A stretch of DNA of 64,000 bases from Paenibacillus alginolyticus DSM 5050 = NBRC 15375. Lineage in GTDB: Bacteria; Bacillota; Bacilli; Paenibacillales; NBRC-103111. Position numbers and translations under genes: made by a program. Every line of letters starts with the position of its first letter. Position 1 is the stretch's first letter. The notes below the pieces were generated by a model. That model searched no databases. It was given only the letters and a program-made list of their open reading frames with translations, and had not been told where the DNA came from. Location of the stretch: the NCBI RefSeq assembly GCF_000422905.1, contig NZ_AUGY01000019.1, positions 1 to 64,000 of the forward strand, written 5' to 3'. Positions 31,628-58,870 of this stretch are shown in pieces.

Positions 31628-31708
31628 CTTGTTTGTAAATAGAGTATGAGGTAAGATGAGATTTGAGTTTAAAAGATTTGAATAAACTCGGTCACAATTT
31701 CATATCCG

Positions 31709-31887
31709 AAATAGGTGCTTACCTTTCGCTATCCAAGCGCAGCGTAAGCTTAAAAGGGAAGATCGGTTTGAAGCCGACGCGGTCCCGCCACTGTAACAGA
31801 AGAGTCAACGTCTTGTATGCCACTGATCGACCGATTGGGAAGGCTGACGTTCGATGAAGATCCTGAAGCCAGGAGACCTGCCTATTT
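31709..31887 (+). promoter_or_regulatory. Cobalamin riboswitch upstream of the [2Fe-2S] protein
   Basis: All core blocks of the B12 box are present in order: AAATAGGTGC (P1), AAAAGGGAAG, AGCCGACGCGGTCCCGCCA, CACTGTAACAGAAG, a GCCACTG block, GGGAAGG, GATGAAGATCCTGAAGCC and AGGAGACCTGCCTATTT. P1 closes as AAATAGG (31709-31715) with CCTATTT (31881-31887). No terminator stem stands between it and the gene 45 bases on. The P1 3' strand can also pair with the ribosome binding site (ATAGG, 31917-31921), so control is probably translational. Confidence 0.93.
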
Positions 31888-31932
31888 CAGCAGCACATTT
31901 TATATACCTACGGGAGATAGGGAGGTGTTCTT

Positions 31933-35402: not shown

Positions 35403-35490
35403 ATGGGTACGTACGAATAAACGACAACTATAAGCTAGATGTCGAAAGACTTGACGTACACCGCTCCTTTCCGCGAAGGTTTCTGGGTGC

Positions 35491-35664
35491 ATAAATGAAG
35501 GTAGGTCTCCTGGCTCTCGGATCATCGTTTCTTTCAGCCTTCCCTGAATATGCATCAAGTGACATGATAGAAATAAACTCCCCGAATACAGTGGCGGGAC
35601 CGCTCGGGATTTGCACCCGATTCCCTGTTACCCCTTGCTTGCTACGCAAAGGCACCTCATTTAT
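35491..35664 (-). promoter_or_regulatory. Cobalamin riboswitch of the cbiMNQO operon
   Basis: Reading the - strand: ATAAATGAGGTGCC, AAGGGGTAACAGGGAATC, GGTGCAAATCCCGAGC, GGTCCCGCCACTGTA, a variable arm, CAGGGAAGGCTG, GATGATCCGAGAGCC and AGGAGACCTACCTTCATTTAT. The outer P1 helix (ATAAATGA with TCATTTAT) is intact. Small open frames across it are artefacts. Confidence 0.93.
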
Positions 35665-35777
35665 TCGAAAAAATATGTAATTGAAAAGAGTATAACACAA
35701 TATGAAAGATTCGTAGCATAGGGAATGTTATTTTTCTTTTTCGCTTTACCGGACAATACGACACATTTAGGTAAACA

Positions 35778-35821: not shown

Positions 35822-35895
35822 CGTCCCAGGAGGGATTCGAACCCCCGACCGCACGCTTAGAAGGCGTGTGCTCTATCCAGCTGAGCTACTGAGAC
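35822..35895 (-). tRNA. tRNA-Arg (anticodon UCU)
   Basis: The 74-nt cloverleaf has acceptor GTCTCAG/CTGGGAC, D-arm AGCTCAGCTGGATAGAGC, anticodon loop CTTCTAA (anticodon TCT) and T-arm GGGGGTTCGAATCCCTC. Discriminator is G; the CCA end is not encoded. It is a single tRNA gene with its own terminator. Confidence 0.95.
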
Positions 35896-45390: not shown

Positions 45391-45500
45391 AACGCGGAGA
45401 GACTTTGAACTCCGTTCAAAGATCCAAAACTGAGAGACTTTGAGCTCTGCTCAAAGATCCCAAGCGTAGAGACTTTGAACTTCAAAGATCCATATATTAG
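45391..45500 (+). repeat. Three hairpin repeats upstream of lonA
   Basis: Three units 35 bases apart share GAGAGACTTTGA...TCAAAGATCC. Copy 1 has stem CTTTGAAC/GTTCAAAG (45403-45421), copy 2 CTTTGAGC/GCTCAAAG (45438-45456). Copy 3 is shortened to CTTTG-AACTT-CAAAG (45473-45487). The last unit ends in ATCCATATATTAGG and runs straight into the lonA ribosome binding site. They probably lie in the lonA leader RNA, downstream of a -10-like TAAAAT at 45352. Related copies lie upstream of hemA and hemE. Confidence 0.8.
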
Positions 45501-45512
45501 GAGGTGCAGAGG

Positions 45513-47858
45513 ATGGGACCCGGAAAAATCAAGGTGCGCAGATTGCCGCTATTGCCTCTAAGGGGACTGCTGGTTTATCCGAGCATGGTTCTACATCTGG
45601 ATGTAGGGCGAGAAAAGTCGGTTAAAGCACTCGAGCGGGCAATGGTGGATGACAGCATGATTCTCCTCTGCTCTCAATCAGAGATCAACATAGAAGAACC
45701 TGCCAAAGAGGATATTTATCGCATCGGGACGATTGCTAAGGTAAGGCAAATGCTGAAACTGCCGAATGGAACGATTCGTGTCTTGGTAGAAGGTGTTTTG
45801 CGTGCTGAGATTGTTGAATACCTCGTGAATGATGAATATTATGAAGTCACGGCTAAGGAATTACCGGAGCAAGAAATCACCGATCCTGAGATCGATGCGC
45901 TCATGCGAAGCGTACTAAGCCAATTCGAGCATTACATTAATTTGTCGAAAAAGGTTACACCAGAAACACTTGCTGCTGTCTCGGACATTGATGAGCCAGG
46001 CCGTTTAGCAGATGTCATATGCAGCCACTTATCGCTCAAAATTAAGGATAAGCAAGAGATTCTGGAGACTGTAGATGTACGCGAGCGTCTCGAGAAAATG
46101 CTCAATATCTTGAATAATGAGCGGGAAGTGCTTGAACTCGAACGTAAAATTAGCCAGCGTGTTAAGAAACAAATGGAAAAAACGCAGAAGGAATACTACC
46201 TTCGCGAGCAAATGAAAGCCATCCAGAAGGAACTTGGCGATAAGGAAGGCCGCGCTGGCGAAGTGGATGATCTACGCAACCAGTTGGCAGAAGCCGAATT
46301 GCCGGAGAAAGTCCGCGAGAAGGTTGAGAAGGAAATCGACCGTCTTGAGAAGATGCCAGCGACTTCTGCCGAGGGAGGCGTCATCCGCAACTATATTGAT
46401 TGGCTGCTGGGACTGCCTTGGTCCAAAAATACCGAAGATGACTTGGATCTAGATAAGGCTGAGGAAATCTTGAATGAGGATCACTTCGGACTTGATAAGC
46501 CAAAGGAGCGCGTACTCGAGTACCTAGCGGTACAGAAGCTTGTTAAGAAGCTGAAAGGACCTATCCTTTGTTTAGTTGGCCCTCCGGGCGTTGGGAAAAC
46601 TTCCATTGCTCGATCGATTGCTAGATCCATGGGAAGACAGTTCATCCGTATCTCGCTTGGCGGGGTTAGAGATGAGGCTGAGATTCGCGGTCATCGCCGT
46701 ACGTATGTTGGGGCTATGCCGGGACGGATCATCCAAGGGATGAAGAACGCTGGAACGAATAATCCTGTTTTCTTGCTTGATGAAATTGATAAAATGGCAA
46801 TGGATTTCCGCGGCGATCCGGCTTCGGCATTGCTTGAAGTACTTGATCCCGAGCAGAATAGCACTTTTAGTGATCATTTCATTGAAGTTCCGTTTGACTT
46901 GTCCAATGTCATGTTCGTGACAACGGCGAATGCTGTTCACAATATTCCTCGCCCTTTGTTAGACCGGATGGAGGTTCTCTACATTCCTGGCTACACAGAG
47001 ATTGAGAAGCTTCAAATTGCGAAAAAGTATTTGCTGCCTAAGCAGAAGCGTGAGCACGGTCTAGAAGAAGATCAACTTGTAGTGGATGAAGCTGCCTTAA
47101 TGAAAATCGTACGTGAATATACGCGTGAAGCGGGCGTTCGTAATTTAGAGCAGCAGGTCGCAGGCATGAATCGCAAAGCAGCCAAAAAAATCGTATCTAA
47201 TCCAACTACACCGGTACATGTAACGGAAGAAAACTTGAAGGACTATCTAGGACCCATCAAGTTCCGCTATAATGTAGCTGAAGAGAAAGATCAAATAGGT
47301 GCTGTAACAGGCCTTGCTTGGACGGAGGTTGGCGGGGATACCTTAGTCATTGAGGTCACCGTTATGCCAGGAACAGGCAAGTTGACTTTGACGGGTAAAC
47401 TCGGCGATGTAATGAAGGAATCAGCGCAAGCTGCTTTCAGTTATACACGCTCGCGGGCTGATGTGCTTGGCATCGCACCTGACTTTCATGAGAAGAACGA
47501 TATCCATATTCACATTCCTGAGGGCGCTATTCCAAAGGATGGCCCATCTGCAGGAATTACAATGGCAACAGCATTGATTTCGGCATTGACGAATATTCCT
47601 GTTTCTCGTGTGGTTGCTATGACAGGTGAAATCACATTGCGCGGCCGAGTACTGCCAATCGGTGGACTCAAGGAAAAGGCGCTCGCGGCACACCGAGCTG
47701 GTATACGTACCATCCTGCTGCCTCAGGATAATGAAAAAGACATCATCGAAATTCCAGAAAGTGTCCGCGCCGAGATGACCTTCATTCCAGTCAGCCATAT
47801 GGATCAAGTGCTTGAACATGCGCTTGTCAAAAATAAGCCTCCCGTGCAAGTCGGATAA
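45513..47858 (+). CDS. lonA: ATP-dependent protease LonA
   Basis: Soluble Lon protease of 781 aa. The ATG at 45513 follows AGGAGG by 8 bases; the in-frame GTG at 45504 lies too close to it. N-terminal substrate-binding domain (about 1-200, start [15 protein letters not shown]), coiled coil about 190-270, Walker [14 protein letters not shown] (about 355), Walker [10 protein letters not shown] (about 420), catalytic Ser in [13 protein letters not shown] (about 677) and Lys in [14 protein letters not shown] (about 720). It is followed by engB as in Bacillus. Confidence 0.97.
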
Positions 47859-47881
47859 CGATAGAAAGTAGTTGAACATCC

Positions 47882-48541
47882 ATGAAAGTCAATCAAGCTG
47901 AGTTTATTATCAGTGCGGTTGGACCTAGCCAATATCCAGAGGATGCCTTGCCAGAGATTGCTCTGGCAGGGCGTTCTAATGTCGGGAAATCTTCGCTCAT
48001 TAACTGTATGATCTCCCGCAAAAATTTGGCTAGAACCAGCTCACAGCCCGGCAAAACCCAAACGCTTAACTATTATAAAATCAACCAGGACTTATATTTC
48101 GTAGATCTTCCAGGTTATGGCTACGCCAAAGTTTCCAAAACGAAACGGGAGCAGTGGGGAAAATTCATTGAGAGCTACTTAATGAATCGAGAAACACTGC
48201 GCCTTGTTATGCAATTAGTTGATTTGCGGCATCCTCCGTCCAAAGATGATCAAGCCATGTACGAGTGGCTAAGACATAATGATGTGCCTGTCATCGTCAT
48301 CGCGACTAAGGCCGATAAGATCCCGAAAAGCAGATGGCCTAAGCACATCAAAATTGTCCGAGAAACACTGGGGATGGATAAAGGTGTCCAACCGTTGATG
48401 TTTTCCTCGGAGCTTGGGCTCGGCAAGGACGAGCTTTGGGGGATTCTAGAGCAAGCCATTGCTTATGGAGAGCCAGAGCCTGAAGAAGCAAATGAACTGG
48501 TGATTGAGAAAGTACAAGATAAAGAACAAGAACCGTCCTGA
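47882..48541 (+). CDS. engB: Ribosome biogenesis GTPase EngB/YsxC
   Basis: Essential GTPase for 50S assembly, 219 aa. G1 is [12 protein letters not shown] (about 30), G3 DLPGYG (about 77), G4 TKADK (about 143) and G5 FSSE (about 178). It lies 23 bases after lonA in the same operon; a terminator overlaps its stop codon. Confidence 0.96.
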
Positions 48542-48559
48542 TTCATAGGGCGGTTTTTT
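48530..48559 (+). terminator. Terminator of the lonA-engB operon
   Basis: AACCGTCC pairs with GGGCGGTT (with one G-U) and is followed by TTTTTTG. Confidence 0.85.
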
Positions 48560-48785
48560 GTGTAAGGATAAGAAGGACGTCAAAAGACAGAGAAAATCAA
48601 GAAGAAGTATACGGGAAAGCGAGGTTTACTGGGGAAAATTTGCTGGCATTCCGTAATTCCTTGGTTTTTTCAGAATATTTGGCTGATTATAATGAATTGC
48701 ACGCAGGAATATTAGAGACGCATGTAGTATAATAATAAACAAGGTAATAGTTAATGGCTTGAAAACAAAGAATCGAGGGATTTTT

Positions 48786-49373
48786 ATGGCACAAAGGTTA
48801 GCGACTGAATATGTCAAAACCTGCCTCCAGTTAACAGAAGCCGAGATGTTCAGGTTTTTTCAAATGTTTGTGGATCATCAAGTGACATTGCAAGTGAAGG
48901 TCTTGGAAAATGGCAACCAAGAGGTTGTTTTTCAAGATGGAGCAGGTCAGGAAATCGTCCTTTCATTTGAGAAGAAATCGGGCCTATATGAATGCACAGG
49001 ATCCTGCAGATTAAGTAACACATTACTGGCTAATTTGATGCGTAAAGCGGTGTCAGAGTTTAAAGGAAGCGCAAAAGTAAATCGGATTTACCCTAGTTAT
49101 ACTATGGTTTACTACTATGAGCGTGGGACCGTCGTTAAAATCGAGGAAGTCAAAGGGCAATTGTTGACCGTTATCTATGAGTACAAAGACACCATTGGTC
49201 TCATGCAGCAAATGTTTCAAAAGAGAGAAGTCGAGCAAGAGATTGAAATGATCTACGATCAAATTAACCATCTTCTTGATTTGCGTAATATGCTGCAGGA
49301 ACAGGAAGAACATCAGCAGATCGACACTCGCCTCAATGAGCTAACGCATCGTTTGTTTATATTGGAGGCTTAA
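48786..49373 (+). CDS. Conserved protein of unknown function with C-terminal coiled coil
   Basis: The ATG at 48786 lies 5 bases after CGAGGGA, giving 195 aa; the in-frame TTG at 48759 has no site. Residues about 25-130 are a beta-rich domain (LQVKVLENGNQEVVFQDG, YYYERGTVVKIEE) and about 145-193 form a coiled coil (EVEQEIEMIYDQINHLL). There is no signal peptide or membrane helix. Not recognised. It is the only gene between two terminators. Confidence 0.7.
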   Translation: MAQRLATEYVKTCLQLTEAEMFRFFQMFVDHQVTLQVKVLENGNQEVVFQDGAGQEIVLSFEKKSGLYECTGSCRLSNTLLANLMRKAVSEFKGSAKVNRIYPSYTMVYYYERGTVVKIEEVKGQLLTVIYEYKDTIGLMQQMFQKREVEQEIEMIYDQINHLLDLRNMLQEQEEHQQIDTRLNELTHRLFILEA

Positions 49374-49396
49374 CTACACATATACCCAATTACAAT

Positions 49397-49419
49397 AGAC
49401 CCTTTTTAGGGTCTTTTTT
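49397..49419 (+). terminator. Terminator after the coiled-coil protein gene
   Basis: AGACCC pairs with GGGTCT around six T/A bases, then TTTTTTG. Confidence 0.9.
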
Positions 49420-49495
49420 GTTTTCCGTCACTTGGCAAAAAAAACTATTGCATTTCTCGTCGATAGATGTTATTTTTATTCTCGTTGAAACAATA

Positions 49496-49608
49496 TAGGA
49501 ACCAGGATTCACTCAGGACATTGAATGTTGCGAGAGATTATACCCTCGGGAAGTGAATGACGTAGGTCCTAGCGGATGAAATTTTTTTCAGACATTTTAT
49601 TCCTAGGA
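49496..49608 (+). promoter_or_regulatory. Structured 5' leader of speD (candidate riboregulator)
   Basis: A multi-helix fold can be drawn: TAGGA (49496-49500) with TCCTA (49567-49571), extended by CC/GG; ATTCACT (49507-49513) with AGTGAAT (49552-49558); inside, ACA/TGT and CGAG/CTCG hairpins. The closing strand TCCTAG (49567-49572) is also perfectly complementary to CTAGGA (49603-49608), which leads into the speD ribosome binding site. The two pairings are mutually exclusive, as in a translational switch. It matches no SAM riboswitch class that I recognise. Confidence 0.5.
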
Positions 49609-49623
49609 AGGGGGAACCGAAAG

Positions 49624-50031
49624 ATGGAAACAGAATACTCAACTTTCGGAAGACACGTTGCTGTAGATACTTGGGGGGTAGATTTCGAACTTCTGAACAA
49701 TGCAGATTGGCTGCAGGCTCAGATGGTAGAAGCTGCCGAGGTATGCGGAGCAACCGTATTATCTGTACAATCCAAGCAATTTGAACCACAAGGAGCAACT
49801 GTACTTGTTATGTTGTCCGAGAGTCATCTCTCCATTCATACTTATCCTGAGAGAGGTTTTGCCGCGCTTGATTGTTATACTTGCGGTGATACAGTGGACC
49901 CTCAATTAGCAATTGACTTTATGGTATCCGTATTGAAACCAGAAACATTCTATGCGAAGAAATTAGTTCGCGGAATGGGTGAACTGCAAGTAGAAACTCC
50001 TGAAATAAAGCAAGCAGAGCTTGTTAAATAA
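49624..50031 (+). CDS. speD: S-adenosylmethionine decarboxylase proenzyme
   Basis: Provides decarboxylated SAM for spermidine synthesis. The ATG at 49624 follows GGAAGGGGG; the upstream ATG at 49576 lies in the leader. The 135-aa class Ib enzyme self-cleaves before a Ser in SESHLSIHTYPE (about residue 65-70), which becomes the pyruvoyl cofactor. Catalytic YTCGD follows (about 85). No spermidine synthase gene (speE) is adjacent. Confidence 0.93.
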   Translation: METEYSTFGRHVAVDTWGVDFELLNNADWLQAQMVEAAEVCGATVLSVQSKQFEPQGATVLVMLSESHLSIHTYPERGFAALDCYTCGDTVDPQLAIDFMVSVLKPETFYAKKLVRGMGELQVETPEIKQAELVK

Positions 50032-50051
50032 GAATCTGCGCATAACAATAA

Positions 50052-50086
50052 CGATAGCCACGGAGAGATCCGTGGTTATTTGTTTG
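50052..50086 (+). terminator. Terminator of speD
   Basis: ATAGCCACGG pairs with CCGTGGTTAT around a 6-base loop, then TTGTTTG. Confidence 0.83.
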
Positions 50087-50157
50087 TCCAGATACCCATA
50101 CAATGTTATTGCGACATATGTCCAAACATGAAGCTAACATGAACTGGGGGAACGGAT

Positions 50158-50694
50158 TTGAAGCAGAAAATAGTTAGAAAAGCAGTGATTTACAGTTTGG
50201 TTGCCTTTCTCATCATCTGGCCTATCTATCAACTCGTTCAAATACTAGGCCCGCATAAAGAAGCGCATGATGCTACTCATCTACTGTATCAAGTATCTCT
50301 GTTTCAGATGGAACTTCTGAAGAGCTATCTGGAAGAAGCTGCTCAAAGCAAAGATACAGAAGGATTGAACGCTGTGGGGCAAGCCCTTTACTCGGCAAGT
50401 TATACGCATGAACGGTTAGTGCTTGCTGCGGGAGGAAGCGAATATTTGACTTCACTGGACAGTATGACTCAGCTAATGCAGTATTTAAAGCGTCTGCAGG
50501 TAGGTGGAAAGCGAGCTTTAAAGCCGGATGAAATCCAGGTTTTGAAGGAAGTTTGTCTTCAGTACAAAAGTATGTACGATCTTTATGAGAAAATGATGGC
50601 TTCGAATGGCGATATTGTTTCGTCTCAAAATACGAAGATGGCAGAATTAGATCGGAATTTAACCTCTTTTATACGAAAAAAAGCACTTCAATAA
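50158..50694 (+). CDS. Membrane-anchored protein of unknown function
   Basis: TTG start behind CTGGGGGAACG, 178 aa. An N-terminal transmembrane helix (about 10-28, AVIYSLVAFLIIWPIYQLVQ) is followed by an external, mostly helical domain without cysteines and without a recognised motif (MELLKSYLEEAAQSKD, THERLVLAAGG). It lies between speD and hemA, with tandem hairpin repeats starting 15 bases after its stop. Confidence 0.68.
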   Translation: MKQKIVRKAVIYSLVAFLIIWPIYQLVQILGPHKEAHDATHLLYQVSLFQMELLKSYLEEAAQSKDTEGLNAVGQALYSASYTHERLVLAAGGSEYLTSLDSMTQLMQYLKRLQVGGKRALKPDEIQVLKEVCLQYKSMYDLYEKMMASNGDIVSSQNTKMAELDRNLTSFIRKKALQ

Positions 50695-50708
50695 AGAGTT
50701 TATAGGGA

Positions 50709-50850
50709 GGATCTTTGAGCTACGCTCAAAGATCCCAAAGCGGAGAGATTTTGAGCTACGCTCAAAGATCCCAAAGCGGAGAGATTTTGAGCTACGCTCA
50801 AAGATCCCAAAGCGGAGAGATTTTGAGCTACGCTCAAAGATCCCTATATT
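50709..50850 (+). repeat. Four tandem 36-bp hairpin repeats upstream of hemA
   Basis: Units with period 36 (GAGCTACGCTCAAAGATCCC at 50717, 50753, 50789 and 50825) are joined by AAAGCGGAGAGATTTT. Each folds as TTTGAGC-TAC-GCTCAAA. The first is a perfect 12-bp stem, GGATCTTTGAGC (50709-50720) with GCTCAAAGATCC (50724-50735). The array ends in GATCCCTATATTAGG, as the lonA and hemE copies do. It lies upstream of the hemA -10 element, unlike the other two loci. Not a CRISPR: no unique spacers. Confidence 0.85.
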
Positions 50851-50945
50851 AGGTATATAAGAACGGAATGCGGTTAAAACTAACGAGCAGTATGAAAGCA
50901 TTCATAATTTATACAAAAAGTTTGTCGGATTGCTTGTTTTGCTGT

Positions 50946-50953
50946 GCTATAAT
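50946..50953 (+). promoter_or_regulatory. Extended -10 promoter of hemA
   Basis: GCTATAAT with TG one base before the hexamer (TGCTATAAT) is a good extended -10; TATAAT is at 50948-50953. The -35 is not well spaced. The start codon lies 37 bp downstream. Confidence 0.55.
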
Positions 50954-50989
50954 GGTACATAGAATTAGACGGAAAGGCAGGTGGTACCT

Positions 50990-52393
50990 TTGCATATTAT
51001 CGCGCTTGGCTTGAATTATCGTACGGCCCCGGTAGAAATTCGGGAGAAGTTTGCTTTTTCCGAGCAGGATTTACCTAAGGCATTGGCAGAATTGAAAGAC
51101 ACGAAAAGCATTTTGGAGTGTGTAATTGTCGCCACCTGCAATCGCACGGAAATCTACGCTGTTGTGGATCGACCGCAGATGTGCAGTCATTACTTGACTC
51201 ACTTCATTGAACGTTGGTTCCAAGTCGGCAAGGATCAATTCCAAAAGCATTTATATATGTATGAAAATGAAAAAGCGATTGAACATTTATTCCGCGTAAC
51301 AAGCGGTTTAGATTCCATGGTCATTGGGGAAACCCAAATTCTAGGACAAGTGCGTGATGCTTTTTTATCATCTCAAAATATGAAAGCAACCGGAGCTTAT
51401 TTCAATACCTTGTTTAAGCAATCCGTGACACTTGCCAAAAAAGCACACTCCGAAACAGGCATTAGCAATAATCCAGTTTCCGTCAGCTACGCCGCGGTGG
51501 AACTTGGTAAACGAATATTCGGTACCTACATGAACAAGACGGTTATGATTATTGGTGCTGGTAAGATGAGCGAGCTCACTGTGAAGCACCTTTACGCCAA
51601 TGGCGCTAACAAAGTTATCGTGGTTAACCGTACGTTTGAACGTGCAGTAGAATTGGCCGAGAAATTTAACGGCATTCCATGTACCTTGGATAACATGATG
51701 GAGCATTTAGCGGAAGTGGATATTATAATTAGCTCGACGGGCGCTCCGGGATATGTTCTTACGAAAAATGATATTCAGTCCTATGTTCAAAAAAGAAAAT
51801 CACGTCCGCTTTTCATGATGGATATTGCGGTCCCTCGGGATCTAGATCCACAAATTAGCGGATTACCGAATGTTTTTCTTTATGATATCGATGATCTGGA
51901 GAATATCGTAGACAAGCATTTGCAAGAGAGAAAGAAAGAAGCTGCAAAGATTGAAACGATGATTGAGTCTGAAATCGGTGTTTTCGAACAATGGACAAAG
52001 ACGCTGGGTGTAAGTCCTGTCATTAGCGCTCTTCAAACAAAAGCGAGTCAGATCCACGAAGAGACGATGGATAATATGTTAAAGAAGCTGCCGGACCTAG
52101 ATGAACGTGAGATTAAAGTTATTCGTAAATTGACGAAAAGCATTGTGAATCAAGTGCTGCGAGACCCGATCCTGCGAATTAAGGAAATGGCAGGAGAGCG
52201 TCATGGCGATGAAGCGCTTGAGCTATTCACGAAACTGTTTGCCCTGGAAGAGACCCTTGAACAACAAGAGAAAGCCAATCAGTTAGCACAAGAACTAGAA
52301 GCCGGGCATAAAGCAGTTGAAGCTAAGCAGATGCTGGATGACAAGTTATCCGTGCTTAGTTTACAGACAGCTGATGTTCTAGCCCAATCTTGA
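50990..52393 (+). CDS. hemA: Glutamyl-tRNA reductase
   Basis: First step of C5 tetrapyrrole synthesis: glutamyl-tRNA to glutamate-1-semialdehyde. TTG at 50990 is preferred because family members start directly at HIIALGLNYRTAP and AGGTGG lies 5 bases upstream; GTG at 50981 is the alternative. 467 aa. Catalytic Cys in VATCNRTEIYAV (about 50), NADPH-binding GAGKMSEL (about 190) and the C-terminal dimerisation helices. The product goes to hemL at 62 kb. Confidence 0.96.
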   Translation: MHIIALGLNYRTAPVEIREKFAFSEQDLPKALAELKDTKSILECVIVATCNRTEIYAVVDRPQMCSHYLTHFIERWFQVGKDQFQKHLYMYENEKAIEHLFRVTSGLDSMVIGETQILGQVRDAFLSSQNMKATGAYFNTLFKQSVTLAKKAHSETGISNNPVSVSYAAVELGKRIFGTYMNKTVMIIGAGKMSELTVKHLYANGANKVIVVNRTFERAVELAEKFNGIPCTLDNMMEHLAEVDIIISSTGAPGYVLTKNDIQSYVQKRKSRPLFMMDIAVPRDLDPQISGLPNVFLYDIDDLENIVDKHLQERKKEAAKIETMIESEIGVFEQWTKTLGVSPVISALQTKASQIHEETMDNMLKKLPDLDEREIKVIRKLTKSIVNQVLRDPILRIKEMAGERHGDEALELFTKLFALEETLEQQEKANQLAQELEAGHKAVEAKQMLDDKLSVLSLQTADVLAQS

Positions 52394-52426
52394 AGAAAAG
52401 GGCGCTAATCGCCTAGGAGAGGTGCC

Positions 52427-53257
52427 ATGGTAACACGTAGCTGGTTGTTTGATGCGATGATTTATATGTATGCCCTGAGCCTATTGTTTTACTTTTCGGA
52501 TTTCGCTAATGCGAACCGAAGCGCGAAACGGATGGGGACGGGGCTGCTTTTGTTTGTATGGGTGCTGCAAACTGCTTACTTAGGAATTAATTTGTACGGT
52601 CATTTAACGGAATGGGCGTTTGCCAGGTCGGACGTACTTTTTATGTTTTCGTGGTTGATAGTCACGATTTCACTGTTGATAAACCGATTTTTCCGCATTG
52701 AATTGTTTGTATTTTTTGTGAATGTGCTCGGTTTTGCCATTTTGGCTTTGAATGTATTCGGTAATCCGCATGTAACGCCAATTAAGCCTGATTGGAACAT
52801 CAATGATGAGTTATTATTTATCCATATTACCCTAGCGATTAGCAGTTACGTGGCGTTCTCGATTGCAGCTATTTTCTCAGGCATGTATGTATTCCTACAC
52901 AAAATGTTGAAAGCGAAGAAATTTTCAAAAACGGTTATGCGATTACCTTCACTTGAGAAGATTGAACATTACACTTATCTCTCCGTTATTGTCGGTGCAC
53001 CTTTGCTTCTTATGGCTTTAAGTCTGGGTGTGGTCTGGGTTGTGCTGCAGGGAGATCGTAATTTACTTTATGATCCTAAGGTGATTAATTCATTTTTTGT
53101 TTTGGCAGCGTACGCTTTTTATTTATTTCAGCAGCATTCTATGCGTATTTCGGGCAATAAGCTGGCAGCATGGAATCTCGCGGCATTCTTGATTGTTGTT
53201 CTCAATTTCGTGGTTTCTAATCTGGTTTCAGGCTTTCATGGTTGGATATGGAGCTAA
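52427..53257 (+). CDS. hemX: HemX/CcsA-like membrane protein
   Basis: A 276-aa integral membrane protein with about eight helices, of the cytochrome c assembly (CcsA) superfamily and in the hemX place between hemA and hemC. In B. subtilis HemX lowers the amount of HemA. AGGAGAGG lies before the ATG. It is followed 5 bases on by the sirC start, so it is co-transcribed. Confidence 0.88.
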   Translation: MVTRSWLFDAMIYMYALSLLFYFSDFANANRSAKRMGTGLLLFVWVLQTAYLGINLYGHLTEWAFARSDVLFMFSWLIVTISLLINRFFRIELFVFFVNVLGFAILALNVFGNPHVTPIKPDWNINDELLFIHITLAISSYVAFSIAAIFSGMYVFLHKMLKAKKFSKTVMRLPSLEKIEHYTYLSVIVGAPLLLMALSLGVVWVVLQGDRNLLYDPKVINSFFVLAAYAFYLFQQHSMRISGNKLAAWNLAAFLIVVLNFVVSNLVSGFHGWIWS

Positions 53258-53262
53258 CGACG

Positions 53263-54015
53263 ATGAATCATCCCTATCCGATTATGATGAAACTGTCCGG
53301 ACGCCGATGTTTAGTCATCGGAGGCGGTGCTGTAGCTGAAAGAAAAGTGAAATCGCTGCTGCAAGCAGGTGCCCATGTAACAATCGTAAGCACAGAATTT
53401 ACTTTGGGGCTTATGGAGATGGAGAACCAGTCTGAAGTGGTTCTGTGTAGGCAAACGTTTCATCCATCGATAATGATCGATAGGGACTCAGATTTTGCTC
53501 CTTACACCTTGGTTGTAGCTGCAACGAATGATGCGGAAGTTAACGCTCACGTGCATGAGATAGCATCAAAGCAGGGACAGCTGATCAACGTTGTTGATCA
53601 ACCTCATTTGAGCTCCTTCATCGTGCCTTCTGTTGTTCGTAGAGGGAAGTTAGTTATTGCTGTATCAACTGGTGGAGCAAGTCCTTCAGCTGCTCGTAAA
53701 ATCGCTCAAGAATTGGACAACGCTTATGGTGAGGAGTATGAAACTTACCTCGATTTTCTTAGTGATTTGCGGTTACTGATTCAGAGCAGGGTGGCCGATA
53801 AACAGGCTAGACAACGTGTGTTTAAAGAGATGCTTGAATGGGACGTGCTGGCCAAAATTCGGGACGGCACGTTCGAGAGTTGGAAAAAGAAGCTCTATAT
53901 AACGTTAGAGAAAGAACCTTGGATACAAGAGCAAGTTGGTGATAGAGGTATAGATCTATCTGCTTGGTTAGCAGTTATCAAGGATATCGGGCAGCAAGTA
54001 CAGGGAGGCGGGTAG
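53263..54015 (+). CDS. sirC: Precorrin-2 dehydrogenase (siroheme synthase N-terminal type)
   Basis: NAD-dependent oxidation of precorrin-2 to sirohydrochlorin. The ATG at 53263 (GGAG 9 bases upstream, 5 bases after hemX) is preferred to TTG at 53242; 250 aa. Rossmann motif [21 protein letters not shown] (positions 18-38) and the motif VVAATND (about 87) with a Ser-containing [13 protein letters not shown] (about 140). Followed 2 bases later by hemC. It supplies siroheme for nitrite reductase; chelatase SirB is not in the window. Confidence 0.9.
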
Positions 54016-54017
54016 AG

Positions 54018-54965
54018 ATGAGAACAATCATTGTAGGAACTAGGCAAAGCGCGTTGGCATTAACTCAGACAGGGCAAGTTGTGGAGCTCTTAAGACAGCT
54101 TGCAGCGGACCATGGGATCGATTGTCAATTTGAAATAAAGAAAATTGTCACGAAGGGCGACCGCATTCTGGATGTCACCTTGTCCAAGGTAGGCGGCAAG
54201 GGTCTGTTCGTCAAGGAAATCGAACAGGCACTCGTGGACGGCGACATCGACATGGCCGTCCACAGTATGAAAGATATGCCCTTCGAGCTACCCGAAGGGC
54301 TGGTCGTCGGAGCGGTGCCGAAGCGTGAGGATCCGCGCGATGCGCTGATCACACGCGGGCACCGCTCCCTGGACGAGCTGCCGCAAGGCGCGCTCGTCGG
54401 AACAAGCTCGCTGCGGCGCGCCAGCCAGCTGCAGCACCTCCGCCCGGACCTCCGCATCGAGTCGGTCCGTGGGAACATTGATTCGAGGCTGCGCAAGCTC
54501 GATGAGGAGAACTTCGATGCGATTCTGCTTGCCGCGGCCGGTTTGCACCGGATCGGCTGGCAGGATCGTATCAGCGCGTACTTGCCGCCCGAGATCTGCC
54601 TCCCTGCCGTAGGGCAGGGGGCGCTGTGCATCGAGTGCCGGGGCGGCGACGCCTTCATGCTGGACCTGCTGAGCAGGTTCCAGCATGAGCCTACCGCGCT
54701 CGCGGTGCGAGCGGAGCGGTCTTTCCTTGGCAGACTCAATGGAGGCTGCCAAGTGCCGCTCGGCGCTTACGCGAGCATAAGTGAAGACAGCAGCTCATCA
54801 GAGGCGCCGCTGCTCACTTTAACGGGCATGGTTGGTACGCCGGACGGCGTCACCATGCTCAAGGAAACAGCTTCCGGGAGCGATCCGGAAGCGCTAGGTT
54901 TGCTTGTTGCCGATAAGCTTATTGCGCAAGGCGCAGAACGTATCCTGGCTGAGGTAAGGAAGTGA
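54018..54965 (+). CDS. hemC: Porphobilinogen deaminase (hydroxymethylbilane synthase)
   Basis: Joins four porphobilinogen units. 315 aa from the ATG at 54018; GGGAGG upstream (the in-frame start at 53964 lies inside sirC). Signatures: [17 protein letters not shown] at the start, VHSMKDMP (about 80) and the dipyrromethane cofactor Cys in [11 protein letters not shown] (about 241). The middle of the gene (54.2-54.75 kb) is clearly richer in G+C than its neighbours. Confidence 0.96.
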
Positions 54966-56503
54966 GCTTCGTGAACAAAGGAAGAGTTTATCTCGTTGGT
55001 GCGGGTCCCGGAGATCCTAAGCTCATCTCGGTTCGCGGTATGGAAGCTATCCAGAAAGCCGATGTCATCGTATATGACCGGCTGGCCAACCCACGTCTCC
55101 TCAAGCATCGTAGACCGGAAGCTGAGCTGATCTTTGTCGGTAAGCTTCCGGACAAACATATACTTAAGCAAGAAGAAATTAATCAATTGCTCGTGGATCT
55201 AGCCCTTCAAGGGAAAGTAGTGACTCGTCTCAAAGGCGGCGATCCCAGCGTTTTCGGTCGAGTGGGCGAGGAAGCGGAGCTGCTCGCAGATAACGATGTG
55301 ATCTTCGATATTATTCCCGGTATCACATCCTCCATAGCGGTTCCTGCCTATGCGGGGATTCCAGTAACTCATCGCGACTTCACTTCGTCATTTGCGATTA
55401 TTACCGGTCATGAATACCCGAATAAGACCTATTCCAGTTTGGACTGGGAGCATCTGGCCAAGGCGATTGGCACCATGGTTTTCTTGATGGGTGTAGCGAA
55501 TCTTGAACAAATTTGCCGTGAATTGATTCGCTGCGGCAAACCGCCAGAAATGCCAGTTGCCCTCGTCAGATGGGGGACATGGGCAGATCAAGAAACGATT
55601 ACGGGAACCTTGGCTGATATTACGGAGAAGGTGAGATCAGCTAATTTCAAATCGCCAGCCGTTATTATTGTTGGTGAAGTTGTTAAGCTGCGTGAGAAGC
55701 TGGCCTGGATTGAGAAGAAGCCGCTCTTTGGGCGCCGAGTGCTTGTCACAAGAGCTAGAAGCCAAGCAAGTGAGCTTGTGGATTTAATCGATGACATGGG
55801 AGGGGAAGCGGTCGAATTCCCTGTAATTCGATTACAACCGCCAAGCCGCCCAGAGGCCATACAAGCGTTGGATCTGGCGCTAGACAAGCTTCATGAATTT
55901 GACTGGGTGCTGCTGACAAGCGTAAACGGTGTTGAGTATTTTTTCCGCAGGCTGCGTGAAAAAGGGATTGATGTACGTAAAATGAGGAATGCTCGCATAG
56001 CAGCCGTAGGCCCGAAGACAGCCGAAGCGCTAGCTGAGCGTGGCATTATTGCGGATGTACTCCCAGCCAAATTTCACGGCGATGGTATCCTGGAAGCCAT
56101 TCAAGCAGATTTGAAAGCCGGTCAGAAGGTGCTATTACCTACGGCTGACTTGGCACGTGATTATCTGCCTGATAAGCTTAAAGAGCTCGGTCTTGAAGTA
56201 ACGGAAGTTGATGTCTACGAAAATGTACTCACAACAGACGATGGGGATGAAATCATTCATCTTCTGCAAAATCAAAGCATTCATATCATAACTTTTACAA
56301 GTTCATCCACGGTTACAAACTTGCTTGTTGCCTTGCGTCAGCTGGGTGTGGAAGACCCGCTATCCTTGCTGCAAGGGGTTGAAATTGCTTGTATTGGACC
56401 CAAAACCGCAGAGACTGCTAGTCAATGTGGACTGCCGGTTACGTATATGGCAGAAGAGGCTACCGTTGCTTCATTGGTACAAAGTATTTCGCAACATAAA
56501 TAA
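54962..56503 (+). CDS. Fused uroporphyrinogen-III C-methyltransferase and uroporphyrinogen-III synthase
   Basis: 513 aa in two parts. Residues about 5-245 are the SUMT/CobA methyltransferase ([45 protein letters not shown]), making precorrin-2. Residues about 255-505 are HemD ([42 protein letters not shown]). The fusion puts the branch between heme and siroheme/cobalamin in one protein. Start GTG at 54962 overlaps the hemC stop; GTG at 54971 is an alternative. Confidence 0.93.
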
Positions 56504-56514
56504 TAAATATGCTT

Positions 56515-56550
56515 CAGAAGCAGCTTCATAAGGATAAGGAGCTGCTTCTG
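56515..56550 (+). other. Perfect hairpin between hemD and hemB
   Basis: CAGAAGCAGCT (56515-56525) pairs perfectly with AGCTGCTTCTG (56540-56550) across a 14-base loop. No T-run follows, so it is not a standard terminator; it may stabilise or separate the mRNAs. An upstream frame extending hemB runs through it but lacks a ribosome binding site. Confidence 0.6.
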
Positions 56551-56577
56551 AGCGCCAATAAGGAGGCGGAATTCTAT

Positions 56578-57570
56578 ATGAGTTTCCCTATCATTCGTCA
56601 TCGCCGCTTACGCGGCAATGCAGCTATTCGTAATCTGGTACGTGAAAATCAAGTGACTGTTCACGATGTTGTACAACCGATTTTTGTCACTCACGGTTCG
56701 AACATCAAGTCCGAAATCCCTTCGATGCCAGGTGTTTATCATTTTTCTTTAGATAGAGTGCAGGAAGAGATCGAAGAAATTACAAAGCTTGGCATTCAAG
56801 CTATTCTTCTGTTTGGTGTTCCGGATCATAAAGATGCGAAAGGAACATCCGCTTTTATGGATGAAGGCATTGTGCAGCAAGCAACTCGTTTGATTAAAGA
56901 ATTGAACCCGAATTTGCTCGTTATCGCCGATACGTGTCTATGTCAGTTTACAGATACAGGCCATTGTGGTGTTATCCATCATCATCCGATTACAGGACAT
57001 GCGGATGTGGCAAATGATGCTTCCTTGGAGCTATTGGTTCGAACGGCTGTATCACAAGCCAAAGCGGGTGCTGACATTATCGCTCCTTCCAACATGATGG
57101 ATGGCTATGTGCATGCGATTCGTTCAGGTTTAGATGAAGCTGGCTATGAGAATACACCGATTATGGCCTATTCCGTTAAATATGCATCAGCTTACTACGG
57201 TCCATTCCGAGATGCTGTGGATTCAACGCCGCAATTCGGTGACCGTAAGACGTATCAAATGGATCCAGCCAACGGTCGCGAAGCTTTGCGTGAAGCGGAG
57301 AGTGACGTTGCAGAGGGCGCTGATTTCCTCATGGTGAAGCCGGCTCTTGCTTATATGGACATCATTCGGATGCTGAAGGATAACTTCGATTTGCCGGTAG
57401 TAGCCTATAACGTGAGTGCGGAATATTCGATGATTAAAGCTGCTGCCTTGCAGGGCTGGGTGAATGAAGAAGCTATCGTAATGGAAACAATGACGAGCTT
57501 CAAACGTGCCGGCGCTGATATCATCTTGACTTATTTTGCCAAAGATATTGCTCGTTATTTGAAAAAATAA
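56578..57570 (+). CDS. hemB: Delta-aminolevulinic acid dehydratase (porphobilinogen synthase)
   Basis: Condenses two 5-aminolevulinates to porphobilinogen. The ATG at 56578 follows AAGGAGG and gives 330 aa, close to the Bacillus length; the ATG at 56509 would add 23 residues. Metal Cys region [14 protein letters not shown] (about 123-137), active Lys in [13 protein letters not shown] and [13 protein letters not shown] (about 200 and 252). Confidence 0.96.
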
Positions 57571-57583
57571 ATAATTTCCAAAT

Positions 57584-57666
57584 AGAGCCATTCACCTAAG
57601 ATGCAAAGGCGAGCAGTTTCCGGTGGAAACGATCAGCATGTAGTCTTAGTGCGGATGGTTCTTTTG
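57584..57666 (+). ncRNA. Compact structured RNA or large terminator after hemB
   Basis: An outer helix pairs AGAGCCAT (57584-57591) with GATGGTTCT (57654-57662), continued by CTAAGA (57596-57601) with TCTTAG (57644-57649). Inside, ATGC pairs with GCAT, and GTTTCC-GGT-GGAAAC forms a clear hairpin. TTTTG follows. It may be simply an elaborate terminator of hemB; the conserved-looking loops made me keep it apart. Confidence 0.5.
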
Positions 57667-57754
57667 TCATACTTTTGTCGCAAAACCTAAGCTTACCTCA
57701 GTTGTGACAGGGGTATAATTAGGGCATAATGAATGAGAATAGATGGAAACCAAT

Positions 57755-57794
57755 CGGAGAGACTTTGGCTTAGGGCCAAAGATCCCTATATATG
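57755..57794 (+). repeat. Single hairpin repeat upstream of hemE
   Basis: CGGAGAGA, then stem CTTTGGC (57763-57769), loop TTAGG, stem GCCAAAG (57775-57781), then ATCCCTATATATGG. It is the same element as upstream of lonA and hemA, with the inner stem changed on both sides (GGC/GCC instead of AGC/GCT or AAC/GTT). It ends at the GGAAGG ribosome binding site of hemE, downstream of a TATAAT at 57714-57719. Confidence 0.8.
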
Positions 57795-57805
57795 GAAGGT
57801 GCCTC

Positions 57806-58870
57806 ATGACCTACAACGATAATTTTATTAAAGCATGCCGAAAAGAACAGGTGGATATGCTGCCTGTTTGGTATATGCGCCAAGCTGGACGTTACGATCC
57901 GGATTATCGCAAAATCAAAGAAAAGTATTCACTGCTCGAAATTTGTCAGCAACCAGAGCTAGCTGCGGAAGTTACGATGATGCCCATCAAAAAGTTGGGT
58001 GTTGATGCGGCCATTTTATATTCGGACATCATGAATCCCGTAGCTTCACTTGGGGTTGATTTTGATATTGTCAAAGATGTGGGTCCTGTGATTCATACAC
58101 CAGTTCGAACAGCGCAAGATGTTGAGCGCCTGCGTCCTATCGATGTGGAGAAAGATTTATCGCATATTATTCAAACGATTCGTATCTTAGACAAGGAGCT
58201 AGAGGTTCCCCTCATCTCATTTGCGGGTGCGCCATTTACGATTGCGAGCTACTTGATCGAAGGTAAACCATCCAAAAGCTATATTCGTACGAAGCAGCTT
58301 ATGTACTCCGAACCTACGGTTTGGTTTGCCTTAATGGAGAAGCTAGGCGATATGGTCATTACCTACTTACGAGCGCATATCGCAGCGGGTGCCAAAGCTG
58401 TTCAAGTATTTGATAGCTGGGTTGGCGCGCTTTCTCCTGCGGATTTCCAAAGGTATGTGCTGCCGACAATGACGCGTATTTTCAAAGAACTTGCGGACTT
58501 GAAGGAGCCAAAGATTTATTTCCCAGGCGTGAGTTCAGGGGAGCTGCTTCCTTATCTTAAAGACATTCAAGCGGATGTCATTGGTCTAGATTGGCGGATT
58601 CCAATTTCTGTAGGCCGCGCGAGAGTTGGCGAGCGTTTTGCCGTGCAAGGAAACTTGGATCCCTATATTTTAACAGCTCCGATGAGCGTTATTGAGCAGC
58701 AGGCGAAAGCCATCATAGATGAGGGAATCCAGCAACCAGGTTATATCTTTAACCTTGGCCATGGTTTATTCCCGGAAGCATCGCTTGAGAAGCTAAAGGA
58801 TTTGACTACATTCATTCATACTTACTCACATTCCGTATTATCTCAGCAATCAGAAAAGAGTGGTGTTTAG
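57806..58870 (+). CDS. hemE: Uroporphyrinogen decarboxylase
   Basis: Makes coproporphyrinogen III. The ATG at 57806 (4 bases after GGAAGGTG) gives 354 aa. Signatures PVWYMRQAGRYDPDYR (about 20-35), catalytic Asp in ILYSDIMNP (about 75) and GVGSSG-type equivalents FPGVSSGELL. The upstream in-frame ATG at 57743 lies in front of the repeat hairpin and is rejected. Confidence 0.96.
   Translation: MTYNDNFIKACRKEQVDMLPVWYMRQAGRYDPDYRKIKEKYSLLEICQQPELAAEVTMMPIKKLGVDAAILYSDIMNPVASLGVDFDIVKDVGPVIHTPVRTAQDVERLRPIDVEKDLSHIIQTIRILDKELEVPLISFAGAPFTIASYLIEGKPSKSYIRTKQLMYSEPTVWFALMEKLGDMVITYLRAHIAAGAKAVQVFDSWVGALSPADFQRYVLPTMTRIFKELADLKEPKIYFPGVSSGELLPYLKDIQADVIGLDWRIPISVGRARVGERFAVQGNLDPYILTAPMSVIEQQAKAIIDEGIQQPGYIFNLGHGLFPEASLEKLKDLTTFIHTYSHSVLSQQSEKSGV

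Follow-up and report, generated by a model that had tools for sequence, protein, structure and literature searches.

An uncatalogued hairpin repeat of the Paenibacillus lineage, probably mobile and now found in the 5' leaders of many genes

The first 64,000 nucleotides of contig NZ_AUGY01000019.1 of Paenibacillus alginolyticus DSM 5050 = NBRC 15375 (positions 1 to 64,000; this whole stretch is called the window, and its genome G000) contain eight related hairpins in three groups: a set of three ahead of lonA, a set of four ahead of hemA, and a single hairpin ahead of hemE. These hairpins belong to a real, genus-wide family of small interspersed repeats that is absent from Rfam and from the literature searched; its nearest analogues are the BOX and repetitive extragenic palindromic (REP) elements. 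With some reservation, we favor the reading that the family is an uncatalogued mobile hairpin of the Paenibacillus lineage that has become a 5'-leader element at many genes.

The identities of lonA, hemA, and hemE were confirmed by NCBIfam models. All eight hairpins that had been proposed in a first-pass annotation of the window were located, every unit is oriented as the gene downstream of it, and the inner stems described there as AAC/GTT, AGC/GCT, and GGC/GCC are present as claimed. The proposed consensus was too strict: GAGAGA is not common to all copies (the first hemA copy has GAGGATC and the third lonA copy TAGAGA), the stem does not always start with CTTTG (three hemA copies start with TTTTG), and the third lonA copy has a shortened stem. 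The tail TATAT(T/A) followed by GG, also attributed to all copies, belongs to the last unit of each group (3 of the 8 units) and not to the others. At lonA and hemE, the units continue into the ribosome-binding site, as had been proposed. At hemA, they stop ∼140 nt 5' of the gene's first codon; the intervening stretch contains a block carrying TGCTATAAT or a close variant of it, which a simple promoter scan did not flag. An exact-flank pattern yielded five matches in the window, the hemE copy not among them, and none in 100 shuffles of the window; the hemE copy was caught by a looser genome-wide pattern. The features of the three places are as follows.

45397..45425, + strand: lonA leader unit 1, stem CTTTGAAC/GTTCAAAG
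45432..45460, + strand: lonA leader unit 2, stem CTTTGAGC/GCTCAAAG
45467..45491, + strand: lonA leader unit 3, proximal to the Shine-Dalgarno sequence, stem shortened
45492..45504, + strand: AT-rich lonA tail ATATATTA running into GGAGG; lonA start ATG at 45513 (lon model)
50709..50735, + strand: hemA-upstream unit 1, perfect palindrome GGATCTTTGAGC/GCTCAAAGATCC, GAGAGA lost
50743..50771, + strand: hemA-upstream unit 2, begins with TTTTG, first pair T-G
50779..50807, + strand: hemA-upstream unit 3
50815..50843, + strand: hemA-upstream unit 4
50844..50853, + strand: hemA tail CTATATTA, then GG; hemA start at 50990, a TTG chosen by the analyst
57757..57785, + strand: hemE leader unit, stem CTTTGGCT/GGCCAAAG, loop TAG, last pair T-G
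57786..57799, + strand: hemE tail CTATATAT running into GGAAGG; hemE start ATG at 57806

In the 8.3-Mb genome of the window, 60 strict copies were found with an open-loop pattern, and none with a reversed-pattern control. Among 117 genomes searched, copies occurred in 28, all from the same genus (28 of 30), and in none of the 87 genomes of other genera; within the genus, strict copies per genome ranged from 0 (G017 and G029) to 80 (G015). A genome_contigs scan for the hairpin running into CTATATTAGGAGG returned 46 stretches, 45 titled Paenibacillus and one titled Bacillus sp. FJAT-28004. The unit consists of GAGAGA, a hairpin, and ATCCCTATATTA, and it occurs singly or in arrays of up to 11 units of ∼36 nt. 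From GAGAGA to ATCC, it measures 29 nt in 193 of the 243 units of the collected loci and 25 to 33 nt in the others. Arrays have a period of ∼36 nt (spacings of 35 to 41 nt) with a linker CAAAGCG or similar, and the final unit mostly precedes CTATATTA or CTATATAT. Units inside one array are often alike, while stems vary between arrays and between species at one site. Array size varies as well, with 1 to 11 units at an aspS-like site over seven species and 0 to 8 units at hemA over 30 species. No Rfam covariance model matched the elements at the gathering score in the window or in 28 loci; T-box and ribosomal RNA (rRNA) models matched around some units, and each of two stretches scanned at a laxer setting returned a single weak match. 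In the literature searched, which fell short of most subscription journals, neither topic nor sequence letters led to a paper on the element. Phage carriage was rejected, as IMG/VR viral contigs gave no match to the unit with a CTATA tail, and so was an upstream open reading frame (36 nt as 12 codons, with TAG in the tail), because units of 25 to 33 nt and spacings of 35 to 41 nt break the frame.

That the repeat could be a mobile mini-element landing upstream of genes had been one of the first-pass suggestions, alongside a leader RNA motif and a protein-binding site, and mobility is supported by orthologous sites that are filled in some species and empty in others, the general mark of a mobile element. 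The flanks of 13 sites of G000 were sought in six close relatives. Eleven sites were readable in all six, which gives 66 comparisons (one site was found in no relative, and one, matched by its right half only, was left unscored); 56 were filled and 10 empty. Further empty sites were seen at hemE, hemA, and lonA. At the IMP dehydrogenase gene, for example, an empty GATCAAAAGGAGG corresponds to a filled GATCAAAT, unit, AGGAGG, and elsewhere an empty CAAAAGGAGG corresponds to CAAAT, unit, AGGAGG. Insertion is usually just 5' of GG and without a recognizable target duplication (visual inspection of the empty sites reveals none longer than ∼3 nt), and the left edge often carries some filler bases, e.g., GCG. 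Outside a separate ∼117-nt host repeat described below, GG directly follows the 8-nt tail at 24 of 33 sites in G000 and 24 of 40 in G015 and is absent in the remaining 9 and 16. At the readable empty sites, this GG mostly existed beforehand, with hemE of G020 as the exception. At two sites, empty alleles have GGGG, GGGGG, or GGTGG where the filled alleles have GGAGG, so the element may also improve or bring a Shine-Dalgarno sequence.

The lonA element is old and is found in 23 of the 30 species; it is missing in the group of G014, G017, G021, and G029 and also in G018 and G019, and the remnant in G015 was scored as absent. This distribution takes four changes on a tree of lonA, hemA, and hemE (midpoint rooting only). 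On the same tree, the hemE site, filled in 5 of 29 species (G002, with a run of N, is excluded), takes three changes, and the hemA site, filled in 6 of 30 with a decayed copy in G003, takes two.

Placement relative to genes was scored with identical right flanks counted once, a host-repeat call that tolerates mismatches, and open frames taken by a simple script. In G000, there are 41 sites (60 strict copies), 8 of them in the host repeat; among the other 33, 18 lie in sense orientation directly before a Shine-Dalgarno sequence and an open frame, 2 are antisense, and 13 are neither. G015 has 47 sites (78 of its 80 strict copies), with 7 in the host repeat and the other 40 divided into 20 before a Shine-Dalgarno sequence and an open frame, 0 antisense, and 20 neither. 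The position expected of a leader RNA motif, as first suggested, is thus found at lonA, at hemE, and at about half of the nonhost sites, and not at hemA. At leader sites, a nearly constant ∼12 nt separate the hairpin base from GGAGG, and the base stays clear of the Shine-Dalgarno sequence itself. Other copies lie in the 16S-23S and 23S-5S spacers, antisense to rRNA: L387 in G015 (joined by L388 and L391 through likeness of flanks), L370 in G000, and L044 in G014; the 23S-5S spacer copies stop just before GG, whereas the 16S-23S copies do not. The first-pass annotation had named random strand and placement as the outcome that would speak against it, and this is seen in part, in antisense rRNA-spacer copies and in copies inside another repeat. 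A T-box leader (L034:1383-1658) carries an inserted hairpin of one to three units in all seven close species, after stem I, in the region taken as stem II.

Seventeen downstream genes were extracted and 16 searched against families, of which 13 had a family and 3 were unmatched. The families include IMP dehydrogenase, FloA, an AspS-like synthetase, SufD, SigW, ArgH (its site belongs to the neither class), and ABC permeases, and no pathway common to the 16 searched genes is evident. The ∼117-nt host repeat (TGAGAAAACCTCTATCGAGGCCATTC...CTTTCTTATGTGG) has many copies, e.g., L038:1449-1601, and is itself a target of hairpin insertion, since it occurs with and without the hairpin. Every one of the 30 genomes of the genus matches it, and weaker matches exist in 7 of 30 outside genomes, belonging to six genera; it therefore looks older and wider than the hairpin. 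It had no Rfam match in the loci scanned. A further repeat of the type AAGTGACG...CCGAGTGAG...CTCGGTCGGC sits inside the host repeat or directly adjoins the tail of the hairpin at L054, L061, L007, L029, and L398, which are nests of small repeats. The window holds a local cluster, with 3 of the 41 counted sites of the genome inside 12 kb (45397-57785).

The stems keep their pairing while the bases change. Anchoring outside the stem gave 102 distinct arm pairs, from which two with a deleted arm base and one that was too short were set aside; shuffling of the 3' arms was applied to the 96 distinct units that were long enough. Inner pairs 6 and 7 were Watson-Crick in 89% of these 96 units, versus 46% in the shuffles, and pair 8 did not exceed the shuffles (75% versus 69%, with a shuffle maximum of 80%). 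This count is biased at pair 1, where the search pattern permitted C or T, and wobbles were hence counted in loci found by protein or flank. Pair 5 covaries, with 12 copies changed but matched, 2 G-T, and 3 A-C, counted by hand among the rows listed by a two-mismatch search (76 of 76 of G003, 57 of 57 of G028, and 17 of 85 of G015). The Shine-Dalgarno-proximal lonA copies of 23 species, aligned as 19 distinct rows, are paired in 151 of 151 cells and altered on both sides in 11, and none of 500 shuffles scored as high; one of the pairs counted for the shortened G000 copy would close a loop of a single base. All seven one-sided changes are G-U, the sole wobble type. Among 152 copies at loci found by protein or flank, 1,035 of 1,064 cells are Watson-Crick, 16 G-T, 8 A-C, and 5 other. 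This set omits copies with fewer than five of seven pairs and the five lonA species with a CTCC flank (G006, G010, G012, G023, and G026), which are included in the lonA alignment, where they contribute two G-U cells and no A-C. When separate events are tallied by hand in the 152 copies, the outer five pairs have eight G-T changes and no A-C. The G-T excess favors, though not strongly, a hairpin formed by the sense strand, and mutation linked to transcription could bias this excess.

The favored history can be outlined as a series of steps. A mobile unit of ∼36 to 38 nt, made of GAGAGA, a hairpin of ∼8 bp with an inner stem that is free but paired, and the conserved tail, would work as RNA and be moved by a factor acting in trans. 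It inserts without recognizable target duplication, usually 5' of GG, with the Shine-Dalgarno sequence as the commonest such target; this targeting would fix the orientation and the ∼12-nt distance of the hairpin base from GGAGG. Units would then multiply and homogenize locally into arrays. Once transcribed, the leader hairpin would most likely act as a stabilizer of the mRNA 5' end or as an insulator that leaves the ribosome-binding site open, which we infer to be the simplest role because the hairpin base lies outside the Shine-Dalgarno sequence. At lonA, the hairpin has stayed on as a resident part of the leader in most species of the genus.

Several results weigh against this history or against a leader function. 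Start codons are missing beside about half of the sites, and some copies run antisense to rRNA. No mover was found among the Y1 and IS607 searches. Upstream lonA units are partly decayed in several species, e.g., G001, G003, and G008, and only a remnant is left in G015. The lonA pairs altered on both sides number just two of eight, which 40 of 500 shuffles equal, and the eight further pair types at lonA are equaled by 128 of 500; the G-T excess is small, hand counted, and not seen in the inner two pairs of the 152 copies (one G-T versus two A-C). The window leaders are predicted to fold hardly better than shuffles (lonA z score, -0.81; hemE, -0.92), and the Shine-Dalgarno-proximal lonA unit alone folds no better than shuffles (z score, +0.56). 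For the leader of another gene, z scores were -0.90 for the filled and +1.98 for the empty form; the bare unit scored -2.08. Predicted folding lends weak support. A K-turn or a fold that would sequester the Shine-Dalgarno sequence, considered by eye and by folding prediction, was weak. No intrinsic terminator was found at the three window places.

A further counterweight is the way in which paired changes can arise. At one orthologous site, the loop is ATA in G000 and G001, TAT in three units of G015, TAC in G025 and G028, and GTA in G016, so that the loops (ATA/TAT and TAC/GTA) are inversions of one another; loop inversion is a mark of template switching. The first hemA unit, moreover, has lost GAGAGA and acquired a palindromic flank in G000, G016, G001, G003, and G015. 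Both observations fit template switching, which can yield paired changes and also helps to keep the stems paired; therefore, pairing alone is no proof of selection. The compensatory change from which the first-pass annotation had argued for a selected structure is real covariation, and it is weaker evidence of selection than was supposed. Palindromic flanks were found in 5 of 169 units counted, all at hemA, and in the remaining 164, neither flank departs by more than one change (the count covers loci found by protein or flank, lists the palindromes on both strands, and leaves units with otherwise decayed flanks uncounted). Because the flanks are nonpalindromic nearly everywhere, template switching is argued not to be the whole story. 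Template switching is reported to be able to create and maintain RNA hairpins (PMC8794818); it is a mutational process and not an element, and it leaves dispersal and placement unexplained.

These observations bear most directly on the possibility, less likely in our judgment than the favored history but deserving consideration, that the repeat is purely selfish or neutral, with the pre-GG place a mere target choice, pairing kept by template-switch repair, and no leader function. Copies in rRNA spacers and host repeats, the assorted downstream genes, and gain or loss that changes two or three times within a weakly resolved seven-species group agree with such a repeat, as do the loop inversions and the hemA palindromes. 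Against it, the lonA unit, whose Shine-Dalgarno-proximal copies are intact at every pair, is retained by 23 of 30 species, and 164 of the 169 units have nonpalindromic flanks, which template switching alone should erode. The conserved flanks around a free but paired stem, together with the near-constant spacing to the Shine-Dalgarno sequence, would also suit a cis-regulatory RNA with a structural stem whose neighboring GAGAGA and AUCC are recognized by a protein or small RNA of its own, the genes so marked forming a regulon. This we consider quite unlikely, given the lack of an evident pathway among the 16 searched genes (3 of them unmatched), the half of the sites that are not leaders, the differing presence between close species, and the absence of an Rfam family. 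A portable promoter (TTGAGC, 16 nt, TATATT) driving the downstream gene is extremely improbable: the consensus is matched once, by the final hemA unit, when shuffles average 0.7 matches, transcription would have to begin within or 3' of the Shine-Dalgarno sequence, unit length varies from 25 to 33 nt, and TTGA is lost in many stems. The scan finds no promoter in the lonA stretch, and the match in the hemE stretch sits upstream of the unit.

As to what moves the unit, a single hairpin inserted directionally at a very short motif without evident target duplication recalls an HUH (Y1) transposase (a REP-associated tyrosine transposase [RAYT] or IS200/IS605) acting on a REP-like element, or a mini-IS607, either of which would be compatible with the other readings. 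Y1_Tnp (PF01797) was searched in six genomes and matched one gene each in G000 and G028 and none in G003, G015, G017, and G029, although G003 and G015 are copy rich. IS607 (NF033518) was above the cutoff in 0 of 30 genomes and below it in 23, with no match at all in G003; the best IS607-like match, in G015, scored 96 bits against a cutoff of 110. Neither the two Y1 genes nor the G015 IS607-like gene has a unit within ∼1.5 kb, and the palindrome has no adjacent GTAG or CGTC tag, the tags here being GAGAGA and ATCC. Y1 and IS607 movers are thus unsupported by genome matches and by unit-to-gene distance, and we regard them as very improbable. A bolder proposal, which we think unlikely, is that the hairpin represents a new mini-mobile class, recognized by shape, with short conserved flanks, that goes in 5' of GG with no target duplication and so homes to Shine-Dalgarno sequences, without Y1 or IS607 and perhaps through an RNA intermediate. 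If true, such an element would spread ready-made translation leaders through a genome.

Bacterial palindromic repeats are not known to keep a strict place relative to genes; this repeat is often at a fixed distance before ribosome-binding sites, in the direction of the gene, with a species-specific number of units. The sites with 1 to 11 and 0 to 8 units would form natural series of leader alleles for measuring the effect of hairpin number on expression. The family also makes one ask which agent moves a 36-nt hairpin in the absence of the transposases usual for small elements, and it warns that paired substitutions in bacterial repeats are not necessarily a sign of selection on RNA structure.

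The window has further features beside the repeats: an open reading frame of 178 amino acids at 50158-50694, 5' of hemA, without an NCBIfam match; two cobalamin riboswitches at 31696-31899 (+) and 35482-35674 (-); and a tRNA at 35822-35895 (-).

Among known systems, the repeat departs from miniature inverted-repeat transposable elements (MITEs) in that no target-site duplication longer than ∼3 nt was seen by eye at empty sites. As inverted repeats, it has the hairpin arms; longer inverted ends, sought as a possible MITE on the basis of the hemA palindrome, occur at hemA alone among the loci collected. In Firmicute mRNAs such as those of ermC and aprE, 5' stabilizer hairpins lie just 5' of the ribosome-binding site; the likeness here is a hairpin in that position that could block a 5' exonuclease, although those stabilizers are not known to be repeated or mobile and stabilization by the present hairpin is our inference. 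The BOX element of Streptococcus pneumoniae (PMC3049150) is an interspersed repeat with tandem modules that vary in number between strains and predicted RNA stem-loops, reported to alter downstream gene expression and in one case located beside T-box leaders. The present repeat resembles it in being small and interspersed, with tandem modules of varying number, predicted stem-loops, and an association with a T-box leader. It is set apart, by description and not by comparison of sequences, by its ∼36-nt unit, its place before GG or a Shine-Dalgarno sequence, its free inner stem, its genus, and the absence of flanking end modules among the copies seen. REP and the GTAG- and CGTC-tagged palindromes associated with RAYTs are elements of 20 to 40 bp thought to be nonautonomous and mobile (PMC3733652). 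Palindrome size, high copy number, and a conserved unpaired tag beside the stem are common to both, whereas the present repeat has the tags GAGAGA and ATCC(CTATATTA), no Y1 match in two copy-rich genomes, and direct tandem arrays in one orientation, often at translation starts.

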